A stretch of DNA of 8,372 nucleotides from an uncultured Streptomyces sp. (lineage in GTDB: Bacteria; Actinomycetota; Actinomycetes; Streptomycetales; Streptomycetaceae): contig CAMLJW010000221.1 of the NCBI GenBank assembly GCA_946480485.1, positions 1 through 8,372 on the forward strand, given 5' to 3'. Below are positions 3,039-7,979 of this stretch, one piece after another (the stretch's first letter is position 1; each line of letters begins with the position of its first letter). The position numbers were made by a program, and so were the translations under genes. The notes under the pieces were generated by a model. That model had not been told where the DNA came from, did no database searches, and worked only from the letters and a program-made list of their open reading frames with translations.

Positions 3039-3072
3039 TGCCTAGCCCCAATACCGGTATTGGGGCTAGGCA
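3039..3072. repeat. Perfect 34-bp palindrome (terminator or operator)
   Basis: The left arm TGCCTAGCCCCAATACC (3039-3055) is followed directly by its exact reverse complement (3056-3072), 17 bp per arm with no loop. Flanking bases do not extend the symmetry. In RNA it would form a very stable hairpin, so it could end transcription of the P450 operon, though there is no U tract. As duplex DNA it could equally be a large operator for a dimeric regulator, or the mark of a lost element. It lies 247 bases after the P450 stop and 167 before the next start. Confidence 0.9.
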
Positions 3073-3100: not shown

Positions 3101-3146
3101 GCGTCATCGCACATGCGCTCTATGAAGTCACTCGATGCGGTGACGC
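3101..3146. repeat. Imperfect inverted repeat upstream of the isoprenoid operon
   Basis: GCGTCATCGCA (3101-3111) and TGCGGTGACGC (3136-3146) are reverse complements at 10 of 11 positions, separated by 24 bases. It lies 94-139 bases upstream of ATG 3240, where a promoter or operator is expected. A regulator-binding role is only a possibility. Confidence 0.4.
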
Positions 3147-3226
3147 GCGCATGCGGCGCTGGCTGCGGAGTCATGCTGTGATCAGCACACCGCGAGACGG
3201 TGACTGCTACGCGTGAATGACGACGC

Positions 3227-3239: not shown

Positions 3240-3521
3240 ATGGCACCTACTCCGCAGAGTGGACCACGTCCTGATGAGCAGGCGGTTCTCCTCGTGGCGG
3301 GCCTGGCAGATCTAGCGGTCAGCACCATCAGTGCGGCCGCTGGAACGGTGCAAGGACTCCTCCGGCGAGGCGACGGGCCGGAACTGGCTGAGGAAGCGCA
3401 ACAGGACCTGATGTCACGCGGGCGCCTCGCGCTCGACCGCAACGCCACTACGCCCGACGCGCATCTGGAGGTGCTGGCCCAGCACGCTCGTACCCGGCAG
3501 GCGGCTACCGGTGATCACTGA
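3240..3521 (+). CDS. Small hypothetical protein, first gene of the polyprenyl synthase operon
   Basis: A 93-residue protein I do not recognise. The N-terminus (1-13) is Pro-rich and probably disordered. Residues 14-42 form a hydrophobic or amphipathic stretch rich in Ala, Val and Leu (VLLVAGLADLAVSTISAAAG), ending in an Arg-Arg pair; it is less hydrophobic than a typical membrane helix but could lie on a membrane or on a partner protein. The rest (about 45-90) is charged and predicted helical. No cysteines are present and no catalytic motif is visible. The strong ribosome site and the 11-base overlap with the next gene support real translation and coupling to the polyprenyl synthase. It may be an accessory subunit or membrane adaptor for the synthase or oxygenase, but that rests on position alone. 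Confidence 0.7.
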   Translation: MAPTPQSGPRPDEQAVLLVAGLADLAVSTISAAAGTVQGLLRRGDGPELAEEAQQDLMSRGRLALDRNATTPDAHLEVLAQHARTRQAATGDH

Positions 3522-4566
3522 GGGCTGGGAAGCCGCCAAGTTCAAGGCGCGTATCGACGCTCTGTTGGCGGATTTCCTGGCGGAGGAGGCCGACCATCTG
3601 CTTGCGATCGACGATGTGCTGAAGCCGGTGGCGGAGCAGATGCAGTTGGTGGCCGGGCACGGCAAACGGCTGCGGGCAGCCTTCTGCTACTGGGGGTGGC
3701 GCGCAACCGGCCAACCCGACAGCGAGGCCCTGCTGCACGCGGCGGCCTCCATGGAACTGGTGCATGCCGCGGCGATCGTCCACGACGACATCATCGACGA
3801 CAGCCCGTTACGCCATAACCTGCCCACCGTCCACGTCGCCTTGCGGGCACCTGTTACGGGGCGACCGCGGCCACGGGCCGCCGCCCGTTCCCTGGCCATG
3901 CTGGTCGGGGATCACCTGATGGCACTGGCAGGTCATCTGTTCGCCACCAGCGGCCTGCCGGGTGCCTATCTCGCCCGCGCCAGACCCATGTGGGCGGAAC
4001 TGGCTCGTGAGCTCATCGCCGGGGAGTGCTTGGAGATCTTGAGCACGGGCACCAGCCCAAACACCGATGTATCCATGAAGGTCGTGCGCTACAAGACCGC
4101 GAAGTACACCGTCGAGCAGCCCCTGCTCATCGGCAGCCTGCTCGGCGGGGCTTCCGCCGGATTACGGGCTGGCTTGTCCGCTTACGGGCTGCCGCTGGGG
4201 GAGGCGTTCCAGCTACGTGATGACCTGCTGGGCCTTTTCGGCGAACCGGAGCGCACGGGCAAGGCCAGCCTGGACGACATCCGCAGTCGCCGGCCCACCA
4301 TGCTGCTGGCCAAGACCTGGCAGGCCGCCCTTCCTGCACAGCGAGAGCACCTCGCCGGCGTGCTGGGGCGCCGCGACCTCACCGATGAGCACCTGCATGA
4401 GGTGCGCGAGCTGATGGTGAAGCTGCAGGCGCCGGACCAGGTCGAGGAAATGATCGACGCCCGTGTTCAGGAGGCCGTCAGCCACCTTCACGCCCTCGAC
4501 ATCCCTCACCCTGCCCGGCAGGCCCTCGCCTCCCTCGCACGCTCTGCCACCGACCGCCGTAACTGA
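3511..4566 (+). CDS. Polyprenyl diphosphate synthase (trans-isoprenyl, GGPP synthase-like)
   Basis: A 351-residue all-helical enzyme that condenses isopentenyl diphosphate with an allylic diphosphate. GKRLR (51-55) binds the diphosphate. The first Asp-rich motif DDIID is at 92-96, within LVHAAAIVHDDIIDDS. K195-T196 lies in YKTAKYT, and the second Asp-rich motif is RDDLLG (236-241), with Gly where DDxxD has its last Asp; I recall this form from many actinobacterial GGPP synthases. Small residues before the first motif (A86-A88) favour a product of C20 or longer, but chain length cannot be read safely. The GTG start at 3511 has only a weak ribosome site and overlaps the previous stop by 11 bases, so translation is probably coupled. 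Two leucines are coded by TTA (3808-3810, 4162-4164), which implies dependence on the bldA tRNA. An MpaB-like oxygenase gene follows after 53 bases. Confidence 0.93.
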   Translation: MITEGWEAAKFKARIDALLADFLAEEADHLLAIDDVLKPVAEQMQLVAGHGKRLRAAFCYWGWRATGQPDSEALLHAAASMELVHAAAIVHDDIIDDSPLRHNLPTVHVALRAPVTGRPRPRAAARSLAMLVGDHLMALAGHLFATSGLPGAYLARARPMWAELARELIAGECLEILSTGTSPNTDVSMKVVRYKTAKYTVEQPLLIGSLLGGASAGLRAGLSAYGLPLGEAFQLRDDLLGLFGEPERTGKASLDDIRSRRPTMLLAKTWQAALPAQREHLAGVLGRRDLTDEHLHEVRELMVKLQAPDQVEEMIDARVQEAVSHLHALDIPHPARQALASLARSATDRRN

Positions 4567-4619
4567 CCCCCGAACGGCTCCCAGCTGATGCCGGGCGCCT
4601 GCCGGAAAGGACTGCATCG

Positions 4620-5792
4620 ATGACCTACACCGACGCCTCGATGGACGCCCTGCGTCAGTCCGGCGACGAACTCGCCGACGCTGTCGTCGCCACCCTCTTC
4701 GAACGGGAGGAGGTGGGCAAGTTCAACACGCTGATGCGTTACGTCTCCACCGCCGGAGCGCCCCTGCCCGATGGGCTGCCCGATGTCGCCCGCGAGTACC
4801 TCCAGGCCACCAGCGTGCCGCCGGACTGGGTGGACTGGACGGAGATGGAGAAGGCGCGTCTGTTCTTCATCGACAACAACGTGCACATCTCCACCGCGCT
4901 GTCGTTTGCCTCCATGCCCGCCTGCTACGTCGTCCCTCACGTGGCGAAACTACTCTCAGCCACGCACGGGCTGAACTACCCCTCCAAGCGGATGGCCGAG
5001 ACCGGCCAGTTCACCGTCTACCTCATGCAACCGGACGCCTTCGAAGCTGGCAGCCGCTTCATCCCCGCCGCGCAGAAGGTCCGCCTGCTGCATGCCTCCA
5101 TCCGTCATCACCTCAAGCGAGAGGAGCGCTGGGACACCGACGCGTTGGGGGTGCCGATCTGCCAGGAAGACATGATCGGCGGGCAGATGTTCTTCTCCAT
5201 GCTCGTCCTGGACAGCCTTCACCGCTTGAACATCCACATGTCCGTCGAAGGCGCCGAGGCGTACTTCTACGCCTGGCGGGTGGTCGGCGCTATCCTCGGT
5301 GTCGACCAGGACGCCATGCCCAAAACCCTGGAAGAGGCCCGGCAGTTCCTCGACCTGTACATGATTCGGCACATGGGCCCCTCCGACGAGGGCGTCCACC
5401 TGACCCGGCAGCTGATCGACCTCTACGAGGAAGTCGTTCCCGGCACCTTCTTCGACCCTATCGTCTCGGCCCTCATCCGCTACCTCATCGGTGACACCTG
5501 TGCGGACTGGCTCCAGGTGCCCCGCACCGCATGGGACAGCGTCGCCAAGCTCGCGCCCACCTTGCTCGGTGTTCTGGAAAACATTGAGGACCGCTCCCCG
5601 TTCGGCGCCTGGGCCCTGGACCGCCTGGGCCACCTCACCTCCGTCTTCGAGCTGTCCTCCCTCACACGCGGACGCGTCATGCATTACGCCATCCCCGAAC
5701 AGCTGAAGAAGGACTTCGGCGTCAGCGGCAACGTGCCCCGCACACACCGATGGACACCACCTGCTTCCACTCTGGGCGCCGCCGCGAGGTGA
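4620..5792 (+). CDS. MpaB/Lcp-like haem oxygenase (DUF2236, oxygenase MpaB family)
   Basis: A 390-residue protein of the family containing fungal MpaB, which cleaves the farnesyl chain of a mycophenolic acid precursor, and Lcp, which cleaves rubber. Family marks are KRMAETGQF (123-131), KVRLLHASIR (153-162), GVPICQEDM (177-185) and AYFYAWRVVGAILGVD (214-229). From memory of Lcp K30, His158 with Arg155 matches the haem ligand pair H198/R195, and R124, E127 and T128 match R164, K167 and T168, so the Lcp lysine is glutamate here. There is no signal peptide, unlike secreted Lcp; helices such as 191-204 are hydrophobic but I see no clear membrane anchor. AAAGGA at 4606-4611 gives a good ribosome site 8 bases before ATG. 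Coupling to a polyprenyl synthase gene suggests an isoprenoid substrate. The C-terminal tail (from about 371) adjoins mobile-element relics and may have been altered. Confidence 0.88.
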   Translation: MTYTDASMDALRQSGDELADAVVATLFEREEVGKFNTLMRYVSTAGAPLPDGLPDVAREYLQATSVPPDWVDWTEMEKARLFFIDNNVHISTALSFASMPACYVVPHVAKLLSATHGLNYPSKRMAETGQFTVYLMQPDAFEAGSRFIPAAQKVRLLHASIRHHLKREERWDTDALGVPICQEDMIGGQMFFSMLVLDSLHRLNIHMSVEGAEAYFYAWRVVGAILGVDQDAMPKTLEEARQFLDLYMIRHMGPSDEGVHLTRQLIDLYEEVVPGTFFDPIVSALIRYLIGDTCADWLQVPRTAWDSVAKLAPTLLGVLENIEDRSPFGAWALDRLGHLTSVFELSSLTRGRVMHYAIPEQLKKDFGVSGNVPRTHRWTPPASTLGAAAR

Positions 5793-5799
5793 AGCGGGT

Positions 5800-6163
5800 G
5801 CCGCTGACGCGCTCCTGCCGGAGTTCGATCGCGGTGCCGTCCCCGAAGGCCTGGTCACCCGGCGTCAGTTACGGGACATGAACCTCAGTCCGGGCGGCAA
5901 CGACGGTCCGGTCGCGATCCTGCGCTGCAAGTGGTGCTCCTACCGGCCGCAGTGGTCGTGCATCCACCCCACCCGGGGCTTCCTGCTCCGCGTCGACCTG
6001 GCCGTGCCCAAGCGCGCGCCCACGCTCGCTCAGGAATGGGCCCTGGACCGGGCGATGGCCGCGAGGCAGACCTGCGGCGACTGCCGGAGGCGTTTTTACA
6101 TCTGCCTCCAGGCTGCCGTATTGCATCGAATGCAACACATCTCGCAGTGCGCCAACTCGCTGA
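5800..6163 (+). pseudogene. RRQRL-motif zinc-binding protein, truncated and frameshifted
   Basis: The +1 frame from about 5800 reads a family I know from Streptomyces accessory DNA: LLPEFDRGAVPEGL, then TRRQLRDMNLSPGG, a Cys pair RCKWC, LLRVDLAVPKRAPTLAQEW, ALDRAMAARQTC and a second Cys pair CGDC followed by RRRFYICL. No ATG, GTG or TTG starts this frame between the mpaB stop and the conserved RRQL motif; ATG 5878 lies inside the motif, so the 5' end is missing. After CL (about 6108) the match moves to the +2 frame, which reads RLPYCIECNT with the expected third Cys pair (CIEC) and stops at TGA 6161-6163; the +1 frame instead runs on as unrelated sequence to 6255. The gene thus carries a net frameshift and a lost start. 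Intact members are thought to bind zinc; their exact role is not known to me. It contains a TTA codon (5869-5871). Confidence 0.78.
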
Positions 6164-6237
6164 GCTGCAGTTGGTGCCCAGGTTGGCGTCGGCTCGGTGG
6201 TTGGTTGGGATGCGCTGACCTGGCACCCGTTATTGAC

Positions 6238-6278
6238 TCAACGATGATGCGTTAGACGCATCGTGAGTGCTGCGTTGA
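6238..6278. repeat. Nested inverted repeats just before tnpA
   Basis: An outer pair TCAACG (6238-6243) and CGTTGA (6273-6278) encloses an inner hairpin GATGCG-TTAGA-CGCATC (6246-6262). It ends directly before the tnpA start at 6280. Tn554-type elements begin close to tnpA, so this may be the left end or a control site of the element; it is not shown to be either. Confidence 0.45.
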
Positions 6279-6279
6279 T

Positions 6280-6609
6280 ATGCCTGGAGCCGCGCGCCTG
6301 GTCCTCGCCGACGGAGTCGTGCACCTGGACCCCGAACCCGCCGTCTTGGAAGCGATGTTGGAAGGCTGGGCACTGCAGCAGCGCACGCGCTCCTTGAGGG
6401 AGTCGTGCAACGAACGATTAGGCCGGGCTCCGGTCTAGCTTTTCCACGAGTGGAACACGGTCACCCACACCAGCGAGTACGAGGGAGCCGCCGAACGGCG
6501 TCCGCTCACCTACGACGAAGTCCAGACCCTTTTCGACGCGCCGACGGCCGCGTCGAGGAGATCCGCACACGACGACGCAAGGGCTCACTCGCGGCCCTTC
6601 GCGACGCCA
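6280..6609 (+). pseudogene. tnpA: tnpA-like tyrosine recombinase (Tn554 family), degraded
   Basis: ATG 6280 opens a typical start of the Streptomyces TnpA-like integrase: MPGAARLVLADGVVHLDPE, then AVLEAMLEGWALQQRTRSL. At about 6393-6400 the text jumps to a more C-terminal part (NERLGRAPV, LFHEWNTVTHTSEYEG, ERRPLTYDEVQTLFDA), so an internal piece of very roughly 70 codons is deleted without loss of frame. TAG at 6436-6438 stands where I expect Gln (RAPVQLFHEW), consistent with a CAG to TAG change. After FDA (about 6540) one base is missing and the match continues in the +3 frame as DGRVEEIRTRRRKG, then SLAALRDA, ending near 6606. The catalytic C-terminal half with the Arg, His and Tyr residues is absent. 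At least four lesions show the gene is dead. Expected residues are from memory of the family. Confidence 0.8.
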
Positions 6610-6900
6610 AAGCAGCGACTCGGGCGCGTGACCCAGTCCCTGCCCAACGGCTACTGCGGCCTGCCGATGCAACGGACATGTCCGCAGGCCAATGCCTGCT
6701 TGACCTGCCCGATGTTTGTCACCACCCCCGAGTTCCTGCCGCAGCACCACGAGCAACGGCAGCAGCTGTTGCAGATCGTCTCGGCCGCCGAGGCCCGCGG
6801 CCAAGCACGCGTGGCCGAGATGAATCGCCAAGTCCTCGGCAACCTTGAGAAGATCATCACCGGTCTGGAAGACGCCCCCGGACAGCCGGAGCAACCCCCG
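6610..6900 (+). pseudogene. tnpB: tnpB-like recombinase (Tn554 family), C-terminal remnant
   Basis: In the +1 frame from about 6610 the sequence reads KQRLGRVTQSLPNGYCGLP, then MQRTCPQANACLTCPMF, TTPEFLPQHHEQRQQL and VAEMNRQVLGNLEKIITGLE. This is the C-terminal tail of TnpB-like site-specific recombinases as I remember them, including the Cys cluster C-x7-C-x5-C-x2-C, probably a zinc site. The whole catalytic domain is missing: the tail is joined to the tnpA remnant within 6606-6615. The frame has no stop before tnpC and runs into it; GTG 6628 could start a 236-residue read-through product, but there is no clear ribosome site for it. This is a deletion relic joining the 3' end of tnpB to the middle of tnpA. 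Confidence 0.75.
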
Positions 6901-7338
6901 ATGCGAGCTGAAAACAGCCAGCACATCGTTGACGCCGCCCGGCGCCGCAGCGAGTACACCCGCGCCAAGGCCGTCCAGGCCCTCCGCACCCTCGACGCGG
7001 CGGGTGAGCCGGTCACCTTCGAGACCGTCGCGAAACGTGCTGGCGTCTCCCGATCCTGGCTCTATACCCAGCCGGACCTGCGAGCGGAGATCGAGCGACT
7101 GCGGGCAGTACATAGCCGCGATCCCGCATCGCCCATTTTCTCACGCCAGCGCACCTCCGATGCTTCCCTGCTGCGACGACTCGAAGCCGCCAACACCCGC
7201 ATCCGGCGCCTCGCCGAGGAGAACCAGCGACTCCGCGAGCAACTTGCCCGCGCCCTCGGCGAACAACGCGCCGGCCGAACCAGAGGTGGATGTCGGCCCA
7301 GGCAAGGACCGTGTTCGGGCGATGTTCCAATGGCGTGA
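6901..7338 (+). CDS. tnpC: TnpC-like accessory protein of a Tn554-type element (DUF6262)
   Basis: A 145-residue protein matching the third gene of Tn554-type elements. Residues 1-35 are helical (NSQHIVDAARRRSEYTRAKA), 36-62 hold a helix-turn-helix (VTFETVAKRAGVSRSWLYTQ), and 86-122 a coiled coil (LLRRLEAANTRIRRLAEENQ). TnpC assists TnpA and TnpB and influences orientation and frequency of insertion in Tn554. ATG 6901 has GGAG 9 bases upstream (6888-6891), the expected position after the tnpB tail. The last 20 or so residues (RTRGGCRPRQGPC onward) do not look like the family and may come from loss of the original stop. With TnpA and TnpB destroyed it cannot support transposition by itself. The frame looks intact, but whether it is expressed is unknown. 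Confidence 0.72.
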   Translation: MRAENSQHIVDAARRRSEYTRAKAVQALRTLDAAGEPVTFETVAKRAGVSRSWLYTQPDLRAEIERLRAVHSRDPASPIFSRQRTSDASLLRRLEAANTRIRRLAEENQRLREQLARALGEQRAGRTRGGCRPRQGPCSGDVPMA

Positions 7339-7355: not shown

Positions 7356-7979
7356 TCAGCCCACGCGATACTTGCCGAGCACGTGCAACACCCCTGCGAT
7401 CAGGAACTTTCCGCGGCCGCCCAACACCCCGTAGATCTCGACGAAGGCGTCTCTCGAATCCGGCACTGCCGCGATCCGCACGGTGAACGTACGTCTGCCG
7501 GTCAGCCGGTGGCTGTACCACATATCACGCTCGATGTCCGTTCCCGGCAGGGCCGCCTCGACGACCTCCCATTCGGAGTCCCCGAAGTCGTGCTCGGCGA
7601 AGTGTGCCAACACCTCACACAGCGGCCGTAGGTTCTCGCCGTAGATCCGCCGCTTGGCCATGGCACGAGTCCAGCCCACCGGGTACGCGTGGACGCCGTC
7701 CCAGACTCCCAGGCGCACGAGGCGGCGCTGACGACCTCTTTCGAACCGGGCGAACATCGCAAACCATCCGCCAAGCAGCACGCCCATGCCCAACGCCAGC
7801 AGAACGTCGCCCTCGAAGACAAGGAGGAAAAGGCCCCAGAAGAAGACCCCTGCCACAAGCCACACAACGAGTGGCCGCCTCGCTGCAAACGTCTGCGATC
7901 TAGTCGGAGGTCGTTGACCTCCGAGGACGCGGTCGAAAGCCCAGTAGGCACGCGCCAGATCCCCACCCTTGATCGGCAT
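7356..7979 (-). CDS. Hypothetical two-helix membrane protein
   Basis: A 207-residue protein I cannot assign. It has a short basic N-terminal region (1-35) and two membrane helices at about 36-55 (PLVVWLVAGVFFWGLFLLVF) and 58-77 (VLLALGMGVLLGGWFAMF), followed by a strongly basic stretch (ARFERGRQRRLVRL). That pattern suggests a hairpin with both ends in the cytoplasm. The C-terminal 110 residues form a mixed, soluble-looking domain (SEWEVVEAALPG, RRTFTVRIAAVP, DAFVEIYGVLGG) that may be mostly beta strands. Codon use with high GC at third positions supports a real gene. The start at 7979 has no good ribosome site: the only G-rich stretch is about 17 bases upstream, so a leaderless or later start is possible. 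It is convergent with tnpC, the stops being 17 bases apart, and nothing next to it hints at its job. Confidence 0.68.
   Translation of the reverse strand: MPIKGGDLARAYWAFDRVLGGQRPPTRSQTFAARRPLVVWLVAGVFFWGLFLLVFEGDVLLALGMGVLLGGWFAMFARFERGRQRRLVRLGVWDGVHAYPVGWTRAMAKRRIYGENLRPLCEVLAHFAEHDFGDSEWEVVEAALPGTDIERDMWYSHRLTGRRTFTVRIAAVPDSRDAFVEIYGVLGGRGKFLIAGVLHVLGKYRVG

Follow-up and report, generated by a model that had tools for sequence, protein, structure and literature searches.

Several described systems bear on the locus considered here. HepS/HepT and HexA/HexB are two-component prenyl diphosphate synthases. MpaB, an oxygenase of mycophenolic acid biosynthesis, is a fungal protein that is bound to the endoplasmic reticulum and that acts on a meroterpenoid side chain. 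Rubber oxygenases of the Lcp type are exported by the twin-arginine translocation (Tat) pathway, and DUF2236 proteins presumably carry heme, according to PMC6311187. Here, we compare with these systems a cassette of three genes, coding for a small protein, a trans-polyprenyl diphosphate synthase (PPS), and a heme-globin-like oxygenase of the MpaB/Lcp family (DUF2236), which is located in a stretch of 8,372 nucleotides (nt) from an uncultured Streptomyces sp. (contig CAMLJW010000221.1; the whole stretch analyzed is termed ‘the window’).

In the window, the small protein gene occupies positions 3240..3521 of the plus strand and codes for 93 amino acids (aa), with a longer in-frame GTG start at 3213 likewise present in the list of open reading frames (ORFs). 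It overlaps by 11 nt (3511-3521) with the PPS gene (3511..4566, plus strand), which starts with GTG and codes for a protein of 351 aa with both Asp-rich motifs intact. A gap of 53 nt (4567-4619) then leads to the oxygenase gene (4620..5792, plus strand), the product of which comprises 390 aa and has a short N-terminus. The ORF coordinates bear out the trio, the 11-nt overlap, and the 53-nt gap reported in a preliminary description of this DNA, and the family assignments made there were upheld by Pfam matches of the PPS to PF00348 (141.5 bits versus a gathering cut-off of 27; E = 3.6e-41) and of the oxygenase to PF09995, MPAB_Lcp_cat (65.3 bits versus a gathering cut-off of 23; E = 1.1e-17). 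We consider it somewhat probable that the three genes constitute a self-contained isoprenoid pathway, in which a linear prenyl diphosphate would be made and then oxidized by a cytosolic heme protein.

Adjacency of the three genes across actinobacterial genomes, which the preliminary description had put forward as a check, proved to be conserved. A scan of a genome collection led by the oxygenase yielded 229 confirmed relatives, and among the best 80 loci that were kept, all of which are titled Streptomyces, the small and PPS genes were directly upstream of the oxygenase gene in 79. The sole exception (L053) has an ORF just upstream of its oxygenase gene that, judged by eye, resembles an IS110-type transposase. 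When a sample of 151 Streptomyces genomes was searched with the oxygenase, 72 had a match at E ≤ 0.001 and 49 coded for a near-full-length relative (62-92% identity). All 49 carry, on the strand of the oxygenase gene, a PPS gene no more than 400 nt upstream that is immediately preceded by the small gene; the oxygenase gene of one genome (L195) is divided between two frames. At loci L141 and L142, all that is left of the oxygenase is a short C-terminal scrap, with neither the PPS nor the small gene in the vicinity, which is a sign of past loss; a third oxygenase scrap in the genus sample was found in genome G022. A search led by the small protein detected matches in 47 of 147 genomes of the order, and 15 of the 16 loci fetched, which came from the 17 weakest matches, had the trio. 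In the exception (L159), 32% of the PPS was matched and the oxygenase not at all. At the level of the phylum, only 6 of 396 sampled genomes matched at E ≤ 1e-60, and a Kitasatospora protein was among the homologs listed. Collectively, these observations show that the unit is a streptomycete cassette that is patchy in its distribution yet tightly linked.

Distance matrices of the three proteins are correlated (r = 0.69-0.78; n = 82), with 0 of 500 permutations giving values as high. Median ratios of nonsynonymous to synonymous differences (pN/pS) relative to the window were 0.22 for the oxygenase, 0.42 for the PPS, and 0.40 for the small protein (n = 81), and by this measure, which is rough since pS is high, the oxygenase is the slowest-evolving of the three. 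Loci L025 and L082 are the same record, such that counts of 83, 84, and 91 given below hold one duplicate; L082 was left out of the distance-matrix and pN/pS analyses. The strong conservation and purifying selection would suit a housekeeping or membrane role, with the PPS supplying a precursor of quinones or lipids that the oxygenase would protect or tailor, and with the small protein serving as a membrane or chain-length factor. However, a near-full-length oxygenase in only 49 of 151 genomes of the genus, with scraps in a few others, indicates that the cassette is dispensable, and its scarcity in the phylum (the 6 of 396 genomes noted above) points the same way; we therefore regard such a role as unlikely.

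The small protein is annotated in databases as ‘polyprenyl synthetase’ and is without an enzyme domain. It was assigned to no Pfam or NCBIfam family, and three of its homologs were likewise without a Pfam family; a search of the PDB with a profile of the small protein gave nothing credible (best E = 0.38). Its conserved core reads AGLADL...RR.D...ARGR...PPAHLE.LA, and an AlphaFold model (predicted local distance difference test, pLDDT, 73.4) features three predicted helices at residues 11-44, 47-68, and 74-90. Of 83 loci, 77 have an overlap of 8, 11, or 14 nt between the small and PPS genes and two have one of 4 nt; in three of the other four, the apparent overlap of 92-101 nt seems to come from start positions mis-set by our script. 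Overlaps of few bases are a usual sign of translational coupling, and the small protein and PPS may thus be made together by coupled translation. From gene overlap and co-occurrence, the small protein is probably a partner subunit of the PPS that would set its assembly or chain length. This arrangement resembles that of HepS/HepT and HexA/HexB, where a small, non-catalytic partner gene is found beside a PPS gene. Unlike those partners, the cassette protein is shorter and belongs to no Pfam family, and its partner role is putative.

The Asp-rich motifs noted in the preliminary description of the synthase were located at residues 92-96 (DDIID) and 237-241 (DDLLG), and the Asp residues of both are kept without exception in the 83 close and 7 sister synthases aligned. 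The sequence up to the first motif is VHAAAIVHDD. Alanine is found at positions -4 and -5 before this motif in all 83 close and all 7 sister synthases, and at position -6, 80 of the close set have Ala and the other 3 have Cys. An aromatic residue at position -5 before the first Asp-rich motif shortens the product of such enzymes. The nearest solved relatives, a geranylgeranyl diphosphate (GGPP) synthase (3lk5; E = 1.4e-48) and a farnesyl diphosphate (FPP) synthase (8f8f; E = 1.2e-43), share with the cassette PPS the pattern of the first motif and have DDLLG or DDVLG as the second. At position -5, however, the Ala of the cassette PPS is replaced by Trp in 8f8f, an entry under the name (2E,6E)-farnesyl diphosphate synthase. 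Because Ala rather than an aromatic residue precedes the first motif, the expected product is C20 or longer, and the active site suggests that the PPS probably makes an all-trans prenyl diphosphate of this length. In three loci, a second, different PPS gene is located directly upstream of the cassette (L033, 7364-8440; L070, 7327-8511; L165, 6897-7970); these additional synthases are 33-35% identical to that of the window.

Comparison of the oxygenase with LcpK30 (5o1l) by phmmer gave E = 9e-27 over residues 15-323, and the only PDB relatives found for the oxygenase were rubber oxygenases. Residue equivalences were taken from the LcpK30 alignment, with roles drawn from PMC5522427 and PMC6311187. 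The cassette oxygenase shares with LcpK30 (PDB 5o1l/5o1m) the proximal heme ligand (H158, equivalent to H198) and the distal residues R124 (R164) and T128 (T168), as described in PMC5522427, together with the salt-bridge pairs D16/R155 and D20/R162 (Asp56/Arg195 and Asp60/Arg202 of Lcp) and W171 (W211). Equivalents of H158, R124, T128, D16, D20, R155, R162, and W171 are present in 91 of 91 oxygenases (84 close and 7 sister) and in 15 of 15 more, and this invariance of the heme site agrees with the earlier assignment of the protein to a heme-oxygenase family. Among 14 remote paralogs, the His is kept in 14, the Arg in 11, and the Thr in 4 (7 have Ser and 3 have Ala).

Two residues of the Lcp active site are replaced. 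The residue proposed as catalytic base in Lcp, Glu148, corresponds to V108 in the cassette oxygenase, and the distal ligand Lys167 corresponds to E127, a position that is Glu in 83 of 84 close homologs (Ala in one), Asn in 7 of 7 sister homologs, and Ala in 7 of 7 members of a third group (L150-L156). As reported in PMC5522427, Lys167 is only 59% conserved even among Lcps, the Glu148Ala and Lys167Ala variants of LcpK30 both retain ~20% activity with unchanged products, and the heme of the Lys167Ala variant is five-coordinate. Because the Lys167 equivalent is replaced, as in that variant, a five-coordinate heme is expected by analogy, and the heme of the cassette oxygenase is probably of this kind.

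The oxygenase further differs from Lcp in that it has no N-terminal extension that could hold a Tat signal. In the alignment, on which alone this judgment is based, Lcp residue 55 is paired with residue 15 of the oxygenase, such that the latter would start near Lcp residue 41, without the Tat-signal region; its short N-terminus suggests that it is probably cytosolic. In addition, and unlike Lcp, the cassette oxygenase is linked with the making of isoprenoids and not with the use of rubber. In this it resembles MpaB, which belongs to the same Pfam family and is a biosynthetic oxygenase acting on a prenyl chain.

The preliminary description had read the locus as a build-and-cleave operon. The conserved pairing of synthase and oxygenase is in line with that proposal, and the part of it that concerns cleavage is weakened by the replacements at Glu148 and Lys167, yet not excluded by them, since the LcpK30 variants keep ~20% activity (PMC5522427). 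In its full form, the proposal would have an intracellular Lcp-type dioxygenase cut a C=C bond to yield a ketone (e.g., geranylacetone or farnesylacetone) and an aldehyde. We consider this possible but doubtful. The rubber oxygenases as sole PDB relatives found, the invariant equivalents of R164, T168, and H198, and the continued cleavage by Lcp variants without Glu148 or Lys167 (~20% of wild type; PMC5522427) argue for it, whereas the hydrophobic substitution of the proposed base throughout the cassette oxygenases and an identity to Lcp remote enough to allow other chemistry argue against it.

Remote paralogs of the oxygenase (29% identity) with a PPS gene 3-8 kb away (L085, L131, L132, and L133) were set aside as another system; their synthases differ. 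In these loci the PPS gene is on the same strand, being downstream in L131. The paralogs of L131 and L132 have a Tat-like start, MTRRHILG, as judged by eye. In L132, other terpenoid-type genes are located in between, and this locus also has a P450 and an ORF that by eye resembles a terpene cyclase. At loci L137, L138, and L139, remote MpaB/Lcp-family genes occur in tandem, as pairs.

Upstream of the small gene, we identified a candidate promoter or operator motif, an interrupted inverted repeat, at 3128..3143 (plus strand). Its common form is GTGATCACTCGATCGTGAGTTC and the variant of the window is TCACTCGATGCGGTGA. The GTGATCACTCGATCGTGAGTTC motif recurs over 84 upstream regions, ~110 nt before the small gene, although in several of these regions, that of the window included, it is present only as a diverged version. 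A further conserved box, [A/G][T/C]GCT[C/G], which is a candidate -10 region, reads ATGCTG in the window (3173..3178, plus strand), 45 nt after the beginning of the motif core. The core was detected in 72 of 80 upstream regions examined, and 51 of these 72 have the box at a spacing of 45 nt. With a motif matrix fitted to the same 84 sequences that it scored, and thus not independent of them, 76 of 84 regions were above the 99th percentile of shuffled copies. A search for the strict motif in 150 genomes of the genus, including 47 of the 49 cassette genomes, served as an independent test and returned 19 sites, one per genome, 17 of which were at the cassette; the reversed motif, used as a control, gave no sites in the 150 genomes. 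Based on these patterns, the cassette seems to have its own promoter and is perhaps controlled by an unlinked regulator. The other two strict sites lie in one orthologous region of genomes G136 and G088, ahead of a gene whose secreted product is, judged by eye, phospholipase-A2-like; an exact cassette motif ahead of such a gene was noted in two genomes at position 1501 of loci L171 and L179. A regulon reading of such off-cassette sites was rejected, given that ~1.2 chance matches are expected in 150 genomes by our own estimate.

Neighboring gene families were compared over the 80 loci with a rough ORF caller (≥80 aa; filter on G+C content at third codon positions), which can miss short or odd neighbors. 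The PPS was recovered in 75 loci, the oxygenase in 72, and the small protein in 39, the last being under-called due to the 80-aa limit. The next-largest family was found in 11 of 80 loci, 8 of these 11 on the opposite strand, and all others were found in ≤6. This rough ORF clustering revealed no further conserved neighbor family across the 80 loci and hence no cyclase or prenyltransferase, consistent with the absence of both that had been noted around the cassette of the window. Because neither is a conserved neighbor, a linear substrate for the oxygenase is plausible from gene content. The same gene content would also fit the oxygenase itself being the missing cyclase, one that starts an oxidative or epoxide-driven cyclization of the prenyl chain, and its standing as the slowest-evolving member is as expected of a product-defining enzyme. 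However, we know of no DUF2236 protein that is a cyclase, and terpene cyclases encoded elsewhere in the genome may act; we judge this proposal to be quite improbable.

The favored reading, a self-contained pathway to an oxidized linear isoprenoid, would thus proceed as follows. The PPS, with the small helical protein as partner, would supply the prenyl chain to the oxygenase, a predicted cytosolic b-type heme globin related to Lcp that would bind O2 at its probably five-coordinate heme. The oxygenase would then oxidize a C=C bond or an allylic position of the linear chain, or of an alcohol or hydrocarbon derived from it, and the isoprenoid that results would be oxygenated or shortened (a nor-isoprenoid). 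An outcome in which the chain is oxidized but stays intact and one in which it is cut into an aldehyde and a ketone appear about equally likely.

Several points weigh against this reading. Adjacency of the genes is not proof that the oxygenase acts on the product of the PPS. In all 91 cassette oxygenases of the first alignment and all 15 of the second, V, I, A, L, or M stands at the position of the Lcp base Glu148, and the AlphaFold model of the oxygenase (pLDDT 45.9) is too poor for use, including for its substrate tunnel. With respect to chain length, the C20-or-longer product of the preliminary description fits the Ala at -4 and -5, whereas the highest-scoring NCBIfam hit of the synthase is a model for farnesyl/geranyl diphosphate synthases (C10/C15), far under its cut-off (202.5 bits versus 600). 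A polyprenyl transferase model (195.0 bits; cut-off 450) and a GGPP synthase model (100.8 bits; cut-off 500) also scored below threshold, such that no NCBIfam model reached its cut-off and the ranking does not favor C20. The role of the small protein rests on gene overlap and co-occurrence, and its structural model is weak (predicted template modeling score 0.36). Lastly, the strict promoter motif was found in only 17 of the 47 cassette genomes searched, with 30 lacking it, and the window lacks the strict form as well.

Upstream of the cassette, the window contains two class-I glutamine amidotransferase-like genes (62-808 and ~799-1548, both plus strand) and a P450 gene (1524-2792, plus strand) that ends 447 nt before the small gene. 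The run from 62 to 2792, in which the amidotransferase genes are also peptidase C26-like, is possibly a rare amine or gamma-glutamyl pathway. A perfect inverted repeat of two 17-nt arms without a loop (34 nt; 3039..3072, no strand assigned), perhaps a transcription boundary or an operator, is located between this module and the cassette. Being on the same strand and close to the cassette, the P450 and amidotransferase genes could share its pathway in this strain. However, at E ≤ 1e-4 the 80 closest loci contain no match to either amidotransferase, and only 4 of them have P450 matches (26-35% identity). Matches to the first amidotransferase at E ≤ 1e-30 were detected in only 4 of 101 genomes of the genus (35-38% identity), and in the only one of those 4 that holds the cassette (G036), the match is on another contig. 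Together with the palindrome that separates the module from a cassette with a motif of its own, these results make a shared pathway highly improbable, and the module was rejected as part of the system, not being conserved with the cassette.

Downstream, the region from ~5777 to 7282 is ~79-91% identical to Streptomyces plasmid genes (for an RRQRL zinc-binding protein, an integrase/recombinase, and a DUF6262 protein), and the cassette of the window thus adjoins DNA resembling a mobile element. The DNA of the window is Streptomyces-like: the 23 plasmid records that matched it are all from Streptomyces, as are the 80 best genome loci by title. Positions 5777-7338 hold relatives or remnants of plasmid or mobile-element genes, including a piece of an integrase/recombinase, and an ORF of 207 aa at 7356-7979 (minus strand) was without a Pfam or NCBIfam family at E ≤ 0.1.

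A literature search, the coverage of which was without most subscription papers and preprints, found no description of the cassette. Each of the enzyme families is known; as far as this search tells, no account exists of them in combination, of a cytosolic branch of Lcp-like proteins whose active site is altered, or of the small partner. We tentatively suggest that the cassette may represent a new class of minimal bacterial isoprenoid pathway, with a two-component prenyl synthase and a single cytosolic, globin-fold heme oxygenase repurposed from rubber cleavage. In such a pathway, the oxygenase alone would define the product (a nor-isoprenoid, an oxidized linear terpenoid, or an oxidatively cyclized terpenoid), without a terpene cyclase, prenyltransferase, or P450. 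With the cassette present in about one third of the Streptomyces sampled and its oxygenase highly conserved, the product should benefit the cell. If our reading is correct, then the chemistry of rubber oxygenases has an intracellular, biosynthetic branch, and terpene mining based on cyclases would overlook pathways of this kind.

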